Source: Pseudomonadota bacterium (GTDB taxonomy: Bacteria > Desulfobacterota > Desulfarculia > Desulfarculales > Desulfarculaceae). From it: 49,604 nucleotides of DNA. Both the position numbers and the translations under genes were made by a program. The notes under the pieces are model-generated. The model did not search any database. It was not told the origin of the DNA and was given only the letters and a program-made list of their open reading frames with translations. Each line of letters begins with the position of its first letter. Within the stretch, counting starts at the first letter, position 1. Shown here in pieces: positions 12,643 to 17,239 of this stretch. The stretch covers positions 1 through 49,604 of the forward strand of contig JAHJPG010000144.1 of assembly GCA_018819925.1 (NCBI GenBank), in the 5' to 3' direction.

Positions 12643-14199
12643 ATGAGCCCCCATAACGCACCCTACCAGCGCGAGGTCAAGGAACTATCCCTGCTCTTCG
12701 AGATCAGCCGGACCTTGGAGCGCAGCATGGACCTCAGGGACGTCGTGGCCCCGGTGCTGGAGCTTATCTCCAATCATATGGGTATGATGCGCGGCACCAT
12801 CACCCTGCTCAACCGCCAGACGGGCGAGATATTGATCGAGGCGGCCCACGGTCTTAGCGCCAAGCAGCGCGAACGGGGCCGCTACAAGCTGGGCGAGGGT
12901 GTCACCGGCCAGGTGGTGCAGTCGGGCCGGCCCATGGTGGTGGAGCACATCGGCGATGAGCCCCACTTTCTGGATCGCACCGGGGCCCGCAGCAAGCTGG
13001 ACAAAAGCGACATTTCCTTTATTTGCGTACCCATCAAGCTGGGCAACGAGGTGATCGGGGCCCTGAGCGCCGACCGCCTGTTCCAAGATTCGGTGTCCCT
13101 GGAAGAAGCCGTGCGCCTGATGAGCGTCATCGCCTCCATGATCGCCCAGGCGGTTCGCCTGCGCCAGGAGGTGATGGAAGAGCAGCAACGTCTGCGCGAG
13201 GAAAATATCCGGCTGCAGCAAAAGCTGCGCGACCGCTTTCATCCCGCCAATATCATCGGCAATTCCAAGGCCATGCAGACCGTATACGACCTCATCGCCC
13301 AGGTTTGCCAGAGCAACACCACAGTACTTATCCGCGGGGAAAGCGGCACCGGCAAGGAATTGGTGGCCCACGCCATCCACTACAACAGCCTCAGGGCCAG
13401 CAAGCCCTTCATCAAGGTGAACTGCGCGGCCCTGCCCGAAGGCGTCATTGAAAGCGAATTGTTCGGCCACGAAAAGGGCGCCTTCACCGGGGCCCACAAC
13501 CAGCGCAAGGGGCGTTTCGAACTGGCCGACGGGGGCACCATCTTTTTGGACGAGGTGGGCGACCTCTCGCCAGCCACCCAGGTCAAGCTGCTGCGGGTTT
13601 TACAGGAGCGCGAATTCGAGCGCGTCGGAGGCGCCGAAACCATCAAGAGCGACGTAAGGGTCATTGCCGCCACCAACCGCGAGTTGGAAAAGCTGCTGGA
13701 TACCGGCACGTTCCGCCAGGATCTCTACTATAGGCTCAACGTATTCCCCATCCACGTGCCGCCGCTGAGGGAGAGGGAAACCGACGTCCTGCTTTTGGCC
13801 AACCACTTCTCCGAAAAGTTCAGCCAGGCCAACGGAAAGGCCATAAGGCGCATCTCCACTCCGGCCATCGACATGCTCATGTCCTATCACTGGCCGGGCA
13901 ACGTCCGCGAGTTGGAGAACTACATCGAGCGGGCGGTGATACTTTCCTCGGACGAGGTGATTCACGGCCACAATCTCCCTCCCACCTTGCAGACCGCCGA
14001 GGCCTCGGGGACCATACACAAAGACACCCTGGAGTCCACCCTGGAGAACCTGGAGCGCGAACTGATCGCCGACGCCCTGAAAATTTCCAGGGGCAACAAG
14101 GCCTTGGCCGCGCGCAGCCTGGGAATCAGCGAGCGGCTCATGGGGCTGAGGGTCAAAAAGTACGGCATAGACCCCCGACGTTTTCGTACCAAAAAGTAG
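12643..14199 (+). CDS. NifA-like sigma-54-dependent transcriptional activator
   Basis: This 518-residue enhancer-binding protein has three parts. An N-terminal GAF domain covers about residues 20-180 ([20 protein letters not shown]). A short coiled linker leads to an AAA+ domain with Walker A GESGTGKE near residue 232 and the sigma-54-contacting GAFTGA near residue 280. A Fis-type helix-turn-helix near residues 475-510 contains [20 protein letters not shown]. Layout and C-terminus resemble NifA. The interdomain cysteine motif of oxygen-sensitive NifA proteins is absent. It lies directly upstream of an outer-membrane protein, Amt and PII, with a sigma-54 promoter between, so control of ammonium uptake genes is the likely job. 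No nif genes are present here, so I leave the gene symbol empty. The ATG at 12643 lacks a strong ribosome-binding site (GGCGAGAAA is the nearest). Confidence 0.9.
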
Positions 14200-14328: not shown

Positions 14329-14343
14329 TGGCACACCCCTTGC
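14329..14343 (+). promoter_or_regulatory. Sigma-54 (-24/-12) promoter of torF-amt-glnK
   Basis: TGGCAC (14329-14334), five bases, TTGC (14340-14343) matches the sigma-54 consensus with correct GG-to-GC spacing. The predicted start site near 14354 leaves a leader of about 95 bases before the torF ATG. An ACAA-N6-TTGT inverted repeat at 14285-14298 lies just upstream and could be a second protein site. The adjacent gene encodes a sigma-54 activator. Confidence 0.8.
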
Positions 14344-14448
14344 CAATGCACAGAGCCAAGCGGCAAGCAGCGAAGGGAAGCAACCCGGCGGCTAGGCTGG
14401 CCGCCGGGAAACTGCTCGAAACATCAAACGCACCAACGAGGAGAAATC

Positions 14449-15222
14449 ATGAAGAAGCTGGCAATCACTTTAATCCTGGCATTGTGCGCGGCCCTTTCCC
14501 TGGGGCTCTACGCGGCCACCCCGGCCCAGGCCAAAATCGAGGTCAACGCAGACTTCTCGGTGGCCTTCAACAGCAAGTACGTATGGCGCGGCATCGTGGT
14601 GGTGGACGACTGGGTGGCCCAGCCCTCGGTCACCGCGTCGGTGGGCGGCTTTTCTTTCAACGTGTGGGCCGACTACATGCTCACCGGCCAGAACGGACGC
14701 AAGAGCGAGATCGACGAGATCGACCTGACCGCCTCCTACACCTTTGACCTGGGCAAGCTCAGCATCCCGGTGGGCGTGATCCGCTACACCTTCCCTGGCA
14801 GCAGCGCGGCCGACACCACCGAGCTTTACGCCGGGATCAGCTACGACTGGATCGTGACCCCCAGCGTGACCATTTACAAGGACGTTCAGGAGTCCAACGG
14901 CTTCTACATCCTGGGCTCCCTGGGCTACTCCCTGGATCTGCCCAAAATCAGCGAGTTGGTCGGCTGGTCCCTGGCGGTGGGCGCCTCCATCGGCTACGGC
15001 AGCGATGAAAACAACGACTTCTACTACAACGGCACCGACAAAAGTGGTTTCACCGACTACTCGGCCTACCTCTCCCTGCCCTTTGGCATCGGCGAGTACG
15101 TGACTCTGACTCCCCAGGTGGTCTTCACCGGCCTGGTGGACAGCGACATCAAGGACAACATGAAGCCCATACAGGACGAGAACAACATCTACTTCGGCCT
15201 GGTGATGGCGGCGTCTTTCTAG
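14449..15222 (+). CDS. TorF family putative porin (outer-membrane protein)
   Basis: This 257-residue protein has a signal peptide (cleavage expected after PAQA, residue 28). A region of alternating beta-strand-like segments ends in a C-terminal aromatic residue, MAASF, typical of outer-membrane barrels. The mature start (KIEVNADFSVAFNSKYVWRG) matches the TIGR02001/TorF-type family as I recall it, where the RG after the aromatic residues is conserved. Members often sit beside amt and glnK. The gene follows a sigma-54 promoter and precedes amt by 72 bases, with GAGGAGA before the ATG. I infer that it allows a solute, perhaps ammonium or a small nitrogen compound, through the outer membrane under nitrogen limitation; transport has not been shown from sequence. 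Confidence 0.82.
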   Translation: MKKLAITLILALCAALSLGLYAATPAQAKIEVNADFSVAFNSKYVWRGIVVVDDWVAQPSVTASVGGFSFNVWADYMLTGQNGRKSEIDEIDLTASYTFDLGKLSIPVGVIRYTFPGSSAADTTELYAGISYDWIVTPSVTIYKDVQESNGFYILGSLGYSLDLPKISELVGWSLAVGASIGYGSDENNDFYYNGTDKSGFTDYSAYLSLPFGIGEYVTLTPQVVFTGLVDSDIKDNMKPIQDENNIYFGLVMAASF

Positions 15223-15294: not shown

Positions 15295-16635
15295 ATGATA
15301 AAGCGCGTGACGGCCTCTCTAACCACCCTGGTGGGGCTGGGCTTGCTATCCGCCCTGCCCGCCTGGGCCCAAGAGGCGGCCAAAGCCCCCAAGATCAACG
15401 ACCTGGACACGCTATGGGTCCTCTTGGCGGCCTATCTGGTGTTCTTCATGCAGCCTGGGTTCGCCATGGTCGAGGCCGGTCTGACCCGGGCCAAGAACGC
15501 AGCCAACATACTGGCCAAAAACTTCATGGACTTCGCCTTGGCCAGCATTCTCTACTTTATAGTGGGCTATGCCTTCATGTTCGGCGAGGGCAACTCCTTC
15601 ATAGGCCTGTCCGGCTTCGGCCTCTCGGGCCTGACCAGCGACGGCCTGCCGGTGTGGGCGGCCTGGATGTTCCAGGCGGTGTTCTGCGGCACAGCGGCCA
15701 CCATCGTTTCCGGAGTCATGGCCGAGCGCACCAGGTTCCCCTCCTACCTCATAGCCACGGTGTTTGTGACCACCCTCAACTACCCCATCATCGGCCACTG
15801 GACCTGGGGCGGCGGCTGGCTTTCCCAGATGGGCTTCTTTGACTTCGCCGGCTCCACCATCGTGCATGGCACCGGCGGCTGGATCGGCCTGGTGGGGGCC
15901 ATCATCCTGGGCCCGCGCATCGGCCGCTACGGACCCGACGGCAAGAGCCGGGTGTTGGCCGGCCACAACATCCCCTTGGCCGCCCTGGGCGTGTTCATCC
16001 TGTGGTTCGGCTGGTTCGGCTTCAACCCGGGCAGCCAGTTGGCCGCCTCCGGCACCGAAAACGCCATGGCCATAGCCCTGATAACCATCAACACCAACCT
16101 GTCGGCCGCTGCCGGCGCCCTCTCGGCCATGTTCCTGGTGTGGGCCATGTACGGCAAGCCCGACCTGACCATGTGCATGAACGGAGCCCTGGCCGGCCTG
16201 GTGGCCATCACCGCGCCCTGCGCCGTGGTCAGCCCCTGGGCCTCCATGGTCATCGGCCTCATCGCCGGCGGCATCGTGGTCTTGGGCGTGGGCCTGCTGG
16301 ACAAGTTGCACATCGACGACCCGGTGGGCGCGGTGCCGGTCCACGGCTTCAACGGCATGTGGGGCACCATCGCGGTGGGCATCTGGGGCCAGAAGGCCCT
16401 GGGCCTGGCGGGCGACGGCCTGCTGCACGGCGGCGGCTTCACCCAGCTGGGCATCCAGATCATGGGCACGGTGGTTTGCGCCGCCTTTGCAATGGCCTGC
16501 ATGCTCGTGGTATTCCTGGCGGTCAAGGCGGTCATGGGCCTCAGGGTGCCCAAGGAAGAGGAAATCTGCGGCCTGGACATTGAAGAACACGGTATGGAAG
16601 CCTATTCCGACTTCCAGATCTTCACCACCAGATAG
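15295..16635 (+). CDS. amt: Ammonium transporter Amt
   Basis: Amt forms trimers in the inner membrane that take up ammonium. The 446-residue protein starts with a cleavable-looking signal sequence (ending LPAWA) followed by about eleven membrane segments. The twin histidines of the pore are His191 (TIVHGTGGW) and His350 (PVHGFNGMWG). The upstream TWGGGWLSQMGFFDFAGS and the loop GPRIGRYG are typical. A 34-residue cytoplasmic tail ends the protein. The ribosome-binding site is AAAGGAG. It lies between the TorF-like protein and the PII gene, whose product usually blocks the Amt pore when nitrogen is plentiful. Expression is probably driven by the sigma-54 promoter upstream of torF. Confidence 0.97.
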   Translation: MIKRVTASLTTLVGLGLLSALPAWAQEAAKAPKINDLDTLWVLLAAYLVFFMQPGFAMVEAGLTRAKNAANILAKNFMDFALASILYFIVGYAFMFGEGNSFIGLSGFGLSGLTSDGLPVWAAWMFQAVFCGTAATIVSGVMAERTRFPSYLIATVFVTTLNYPIIGHWTWGGGWLSQMGFFDFAGSTIVHGTGGWIGLVGAIILGPRIGRYGPDGKSRVLAGHNIPLAALGVFILWFGWFGFNPGSQLAASGTENAMAIALITINTNLSAAAGALSAMFLVWAMYGKPDLTMCMNGALAGLVAITAPCAVVSPWASMVIGLIAGGIVVLGVGLLDKLHIDDPVGAVPVHGFNGMWGTIAVGIWGQKALGLAGDGLLHGGGFTQLGIQIMGTVVCAAFAMACMLVVFLAVKAVMGLRVPKEEEICGLDIEEHGMEAYSDFQIFTTR

Positions 16636-16652: not shown

Positions 16653-16994
16653 ATGAAAATGATAGTGGCGTACATCAAGCCCGAAAGACTAAACGACGTG
16701 AAGCAGGCCCTGTACGAGGCCCAGATCTTCAACATGTCGGTCACCAATGTGGTGGGCTCCGGCCGCCAGCGGGGATTTTCGGAAACCTACCGCGGGGTGG
16801 AGCAGGAGGTGAATCTGCTCAAGAAGGTCCGTCTGGAGATCGGCCTCAACGACGACTTCGTGGAGTCGGCCAAGCAGGCCATCATCACGGGCGCCCGCAC
16901 CGGCGAAATCGGCGACGGGGTCATCTTCGTGCTCCCCATGGAAGAGGCCATGCGCATCCGCACCGGCGAAGAGGGTCCGACGGCCATGGGCTAG
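16653..16994 (+). CDS. glnK: P-II family nitrogen regulator (atypical T-loop and ligand residues)
   Basis: PII proteins are trimeric sensors of 2-oxoglutarate and adenylate energy; when amt-linked they usually regulate Amt. The 113 residues align without gaps to E. coli GlnB as I recall it. Conserved are the IKP start, Gly37, the T-loop start GRQRGFSETYRG, Lys58 and RIRTGEE with Arg101 and Arg103. Unusual features are Gln51 in place of the uridylylated Tyr51, Glu85 for Lys85, and Val90 for Lys90 in TGEIGDGVIFV. Lys90 normally contacts the ATP phosphates. The gene lies 17 bases after amt, with a GGGGGGAG ribosome-binding site, and a terminator follows. The family is certain; ligand behaviour and regulation by modification must differ from GlnB. 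It could be an Amt-dedicated variant. Confidence 0.95.
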   Translation: MKMIVAYIKPERLNDVKQALYEAQIFNMSVTNVVGSGRQRGFSETYRGVEQEVNLLKKVRLEIGLNDDFVESAKQAIITGARTGEIGDGVIFVLPMEEAMRIRTGEEGPTAMG

Positions 16995-17223: not shown

Positions 17224-17239
17224 TGGCGCAAAAATTGCT
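17224..17239 (+). promoter_or_regulatory. Sigma-54 (-24/-12) promoter of glnA
   Basis: TGGCGC (17224-17229), five A, TTGCT (17235-17239) matches the sigma-54 consensus with correct spacing. The start site is expected near 17249. The inverted repeat GTTTGGC/GCCAAAC overlaps both ends of the promoter and reaches to about -1. Confidence 0.8.

Follow-up and report, generated by a model that had tools for sequence, protein, structure and literature searches.

In textbooks, PII proteins sense the nitrogen and energy state of the cell, and Lys90 is regarded as belonging to their fixed ATP site. The window (the whole stretch of 49,604 nucleotides that we analysed, from a genome of the Desulfarculaceae) encodes a PII protein in which Lys90 is replaced by Val, and which also lacks the Tyr51 and Lys85 of E. 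coli GlnB. The initial annotation had proposed that, on account of these replacements, the sensing of ATP, ADP and 2-oxoglutarate, and the interaction with Amt, may differ from the model. The question that the locus raises is which of the three replacements matters for the way this protein would work.

The amt-glnK locus and its product

We numbered the residues after E. coli K-12 GlnB (taken from NC_000913), to which the glnK product aligns without gaps. The alignment confirmed Gln51, Glu85 and Val90, and also the retention of Lys58, Arg101 and Arg103, all of which had been read correctly at the outset. Lys9, Arg38, Gln39, Glu44, Tyr46, Arg47, Gly87, Asp88 and Gly89 are likewise retained, and we observed two more differences from GlnB that had not been listed earlier (Phe36 to Ser and Pro57 to Lys). 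Of five side chains that contact ATP or 2-oxoglutarate (Gln39, Lys58, Lys90, Arg101 and Arg103; list from PMC8395244), four are kept and Lys90 is Val. Another 26 proteins, encoded in other genomes, carry the same Val90 (identity within the family is 71-93%), so it is not a sequencing error.

The product matched the Pfam P-II profile (PF00543) with 78 bits against a cut-off of 25 (residues 1-106 on profile positions 1-102), and its best PDB sequence matches were ordinary PII proteins. The AlphaFold2 model (a monomer, from a 24-row alignment) had a pLDDT of 84, with low confidence in the T-loop, and showed a plain PII fold, ferredoxin-like and bearing T-, B- and C-loops; 91 of its residues superpose on 1hwu with an rmsd of 0.8 (Z 17.0). 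The best fold matches include ATP- and 2-oxoglutarate-bound PIIs; the model cannot itself show the effects of ligands.

The gene adjoins amt, with 17 bases between the end of amt and the start of glnK, and Arg47 is present at the tip of the T-loop, as in a GlnK. A uridylylated PII is not indicated (residue 51 is Gln, and GlnD has no match above cut-off in the genome), and neither is a NifI1 or NifI2, since just one PII lies behind amt and its T-loop is of the GlnK type. The glnK product is a GlnK-type PII of a well-known family. Alignment with E. coli AmtB showed that the C-terminal tail of Amt (GLRVPxxxExxGLDxxxHGxxAY) is conserved. With this tail and Arg47 both in place, there is no sequence reason to expect the interaction with Amt to be lost.

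The gene run porin-amt-glnK is followed by glnA, whose product has Phe at the adenylylation site (Tyr397 of E. coli GlnA) in alignment, and is preceded by a NifA-like activator, which is likely the regulator of the porin-amt-glnK/glnA locus. We found two candidate sigma-54 promoters. The site upstream of glnA, TGGCGCAAAAATTGCT, is the only zero-mismatch match to the consensus TGGCNCNNNNNTTGCW in the window. The site upstream of the porin, TGGCACACCCCTTGCC, has one mismatch, and such matches also occur elsewhere in the window, making it weak evidence; for both sites, a match to the consensus is not proof of a promoter. An Rfam search between the genes returned nothing relevant.

The activator passes the NCBIfam cut-off for NifA, yet its own genome has no nifH over the cut-off. 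NifA-like genes near amt-glnK were also seen in Treponema MAGs (L042, L043) and at three other loci (L087, L092, L103). The NifA-like genes beside amt-glnK may regulate ammonium uptake and not nitrogenase.

Table 1. Features of the porin-amt-glnK/glnA locus (positions in the window)
Feature	Position	Strand	Evidence
NifA-like sigma-54 activator (GAF, AAA+, Fis-type HTH)	12643..14199	+	TIGR01817 561 bits (cut-off 529), PF00158, PF01590, PF02954
Candidate sigma-54-like site TGGCACACCCCTTGCC, upstream of porin-amt-glnK	14329..14344	+	One mismatch to consensus
TorF-family putative porin, opening the porin-amt-glnK run	14449..15222	+	TIGR02001 55.1 bits (cut-off 47.2), PF09694
amt, ammonium transporter	15295..16635	+	TIGR00836 458 bits (cut-off 343), PF00909
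glnK, PII protein, 113 aa, Q51 E85 V90	16653..16994	+	ATG 16653 to TAG 16994, intact frame, Pfam P-II
B-loop codons G87-D88-G89-V90, Val replacing Lys90	16911..16922	+	Alignment with GlnB
Candidate sigma-54 -24/-12-like site TGGCGCAAAAATTGCT, upstream of glnA	17224..17239	+	Exact consensus match
glnA, type I glutamine synthetase, 443 aa	17361..18692	+	TIGR00653 538 bits

Tyr51, Glu85 and the missing GlnD

Tyr51 is the site at which GlnD modifies PII (uridylylation). The genome of the window (4.03 Mb, 96% complete, with three PII genes) has no GlnD above the cut-off; its GlnD-like matches all lie below, and were read as proteins of the CCA-adding and RelA types. PF08335, the domain of GlnD and GlnE, was found in none of the 20 genomes of the window's family (some of which are 98-100% complete, and two single-contig) and in none of the 34 genomes of a sister family, f4 (54 genomes together). 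It was present in all six of the other class members searched, and the PIIs of those six have Tyr51 and Lys90.

When 135 PIIs were compared, 55 had Tyr51 and 80 did not, in what is an uneven sample drawn mostly from the same phylum. The loss of Tyr51 is expected here, since the lineage has no GlnD and most of the compared PIIs also lack this residue. A large number of PIIs are believed to go without modification altogether (PMC4285133), and in E. coli the binding and release of AmtB by GlnK Tyr51Ala tracks nitrogen status almost as in the wild type (PMC4274968). We thus rejected the Tyr51 loss as significant, and the weight first placed on it turned out to be uninformative. The two other PIIs of this genome retain Tyr51 despite the GlnD-less lineage, so Tyr51 alone does not predict modification.

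The missing Lys85, also stressed in the initial annotation, carries just as little information. Residue 85 is Lys in just 45 of the 135 PIIs, the tree requires 13 or more changes at this position, and the Thermus PII of the solved structures also has Glu85 and no Tyr51 (PDB alignment). Glu85 was thus set aside as a labile site. E. coli numbering exaggerates the oddity of PIIs in lineages without GlnD, and the differences at Tyr51 and Lys85 add nothing new.

Residue 90 across PII proteins

Residue 90 is a different matter. That Lys90 normally contacts the ATP phosphates was borne out by the solved structures of Methanococcales GlnKs, where it contacts ATP and dADP with a salt bridge to the beta-phosphate, and where the side chains of Gln39 and Lys58 contact Mg and 2-oxoglutarate (PMC8395244). 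In these GlnKs, MjGlnK1 among them, the C-terminal carboxylate holds Lys90 in place, and in tagged MjGlnK1 a displaced Lys90 goes with the loss of proper 2-oxoglutarate coordination (PMC8395244). All the solved PIIs with displayed alignments have Lys or Arg at this position.

In the 135 PIIs, residue 90 was Lys in 91, Val in 27, Leu in 13, Met in three and Ile in one. We built the tree without columns 51, 85 and 90 (just 104 columns, with many forks unresolved), and on it Lys90 changes twice. The first change marks the base of a Val90/Met90 clade (29 proteins, SH-aLRT 98), nested in the Tyr51-less amt-linked GlnKs, and amt lies directly upstream of all 29. The second is at a Leu90-type clade of 15 proteins (SH-aLRT 100). 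With two large PII clades lacking it, Lys90 is not a strict requirement for PII membership. The initial annotation had left room for related PIIs sharing these residues: the loss of Tyr51 and a residue other than Lys at 85 are indeed common, while the loss of Lys90 is found in the nearest relatives and in 44 of the 135 overall.

A DNA-pattern census, a few matches of which may not be PII, covered 394 genomes of the phylum (247 genera); residue 90 was hydrophobic in 28 of these genomes, from 17 genera, with the matches concentrated in the window's family and class. Adding the census loci to the set gave further, separate Lys90-less cases in PII-like and NifI-like branches. Nitrogenase-bearing relatives have a tandem NifI pair next to nifH that keeps Lys90; the loss is thus confined to the GlnK and GlnB-like proteins of the family and does not extend to every PII. 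In the open-access papers searched we found no earlier description of Lys90 mutants, of Lys90-less PIIs or of clade-wide variation at this residue beyond the Methanococcales structures, nor any measurement of binding or transport for a PII that lacks Lys90. The Tyr51 and Glu85 differences are ordinary.

The three PIIs of the window's own genome have Val90, Leu90 and Leu90. The two Leu90 proteins (L002:1495-1878 and L001:1429-1824, on contigs C26 and C50) belong to the distinct Leu90 clade, and have Tyr51 together with Gly46, Gln60, Asn62 and a tail of about 15 residues (MYPGDIDE...). In family f9, three PII-like proteins (L173, L174, L175) carry Val90; their T-loop region is short, their tails reach residues 121-123, and theirs is a separate loss of Lys90. 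Two NifI2-like proteins (L176, L177) have Met90 and Val90, respectively; the NifI2 of the window's relatives keeps Lys90.

As Lys90 pairs with the C-terminal carboxylate, we also compared the chain ends. In the first set, 48 of the 91 PIIs with Lys90 ended at residue 112, but none of the 44 without it, whose last residues are 108-109, 113 or 124-130. The wider set does contain one Lys90-less PII with its end at 112 (L185), and an independent-pairs test that allows for relatedness was far from significant. In the window's family the chains end at 113, as they do in the sisters that keep Lys90. A tie between Lys90 loss and a displaced C-terminus is not established on these results, and we keep it as a lead only. 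GlnKs of f4, the sister family, and one from family f42 (L021-L032, L073) stop at 108-109, with the final residues of the C-loop region lost; they still follow amt.

Conservation within the Val90/Met90 clade was also evaluated. Thirty-four positions are invariant in its 29 members, among them Q39, G41, E44, Y46, R47, G48, K58, G87, D88, G89, R101 and R103. This pattern speaks for selection acting on both the ligand site and the T-loop.

Proposed function and comparison with known PII systems

We consider that the protein is probably a GlnK-type gate of Amt that works without covalent modification, is run by ATP/ADP and 2-oxoglutarate, and has an altered nucleotide pocket. A GlnK trimer would gate the ammonium transporter encoded just upstream. 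With nitrogen plentiful, the T-loops would plug the Amt pores with Arg47 at their tip (Arg47 enters the Amt pore; PMC3198391), and MgATP and 2-oxoglutarate at the subunit clefts would make them leave Amt. Control would be by small molecules alone, with neither GlnD nor Tyr51. Val90 would remove one salt bridge to the ATP beta-phosphate, and the contacts of Gln39, Lys58, Gly87-Asp88-Gly89, Arg101 and Arg103 would remain. Nucleotide binding is expected to persist, with a changed affinity or ATP/ADP preference. The effect could be larger than assumed, given the Lys or Arg90 of the displayed solved PIIs and the displacement in MjGlnK1 (PMC8395244).

Altered sensing of ATP, ADP and 2-oxoglutarate through Val90, as first proposed, is on the residues possible but unproven: the Lys90 change is real and clade-wide and the concern sound in principle, but the nearest relatives share it and the other checked ligand side chains are kept. 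If Val90 is consequential, it could change how GlnK senses cell energy. A natural, clade-wide replacement of Lys90 by Val or Leu, with the other checked ligand side chains kept, is also a ready-made test of the share of Lys90 in ATP/ADP discrimination.

It is unlikely that Val90 abolishes useful ATP/2-oxoglutarate sensing, to leave a fixed or differently triggered partner of Amt (e.g. one that responds to ADP/AMP only). Such a loss would fit the salt bridge of Lys90 to the beta-phosphate and its positioning by the C-terminal carboxylate (PMC8395244), the change of Phe36 to Ser or Ala, the Gly at residue 64 in 24 of the 29 clade members (Ala in the Lys90 sisters), the absence of chains ending at 112 among the Lys90-less PIIs of the first set, and the lack of Lys90 in three of three PIIs of the genome. 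However, Q39 and K58, which contact 2-oxoglutarate and Mg, would hardly be expected to stay invariant if 2-oxoglutarate had ceased to matter. An end at 113 is also seen in the sister GlnKs that have Lys90, and the link of residue 90 with the C-terminus is not significant once relatedness is allowed for. We regard as unlikely, too, the broader idea that the whole family has rebuilt PII nucleotide sensing, where the separate Lys90 losses in the amt-linked GlnK (Val) and the second PII type (Leu) would give PIIs that read ADP/AMP or total adenylate and not the ATP/ADP ratio, or 2-oxoglutarate with a different nucleotide requirement.

Covalent modification elsewhere in the T-loop (on Tyr46 or a Ser) in place of Tyr51 is very improbable: Tyr46 is invariant in the Val90/Met90 clade, but it is kept in 112 of the 135 PIIs, including those modified at Tyr51, and neither a GlnD nor a GlnE domain occurs in the lineage. 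A decaying or artefactual gene, which the departure from textbook residues at three named sites might suggest, is refuted by the intact frame, the amt-glnK-glnA arrangement conserved across genomes, the identity within the family and the invariant positions of the clade.

The GlnK-type gate proposed here resembles E. coli GlnK/GlnB (PF00543) in its gapless alignment, PII fold, Gln39, Lys58, Arg47, Gly87-Asp88-Gly89, Arg101 and Arg103, and E. coli GlnK in its amt linkage. It differs in the lack of Tyr51, in its GlnD-less lineage, in Glu85, Val90 and Ser36, and in ending at 113 with Gly. The Thermus thermophilus PII (TT1020; 1ufl, 1v3s and others), its second-best PDB sequence match, shares with it Glu85, the RTGE C-loop and the absence of Tyr51, but keeps Lys90. 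The archaeal GlnKs (M. jannaschii, Methanothermococcus, A. fulgidus) are Amt regulators, and A. fulgidus GlnK1 also lacks Tyr51; however, they have Lys90, or Arg90 in A. fulgidus GlnK1. Other amt-linked GlnKs of the same phylum and of Treponema MAGs (L042, L043, L061-L069) belong to the same Tyr51-less clade, and share Lys57-Lys58, Arg or Lys at 60 and an end at 113 with Gly, but they too keep Lys90.
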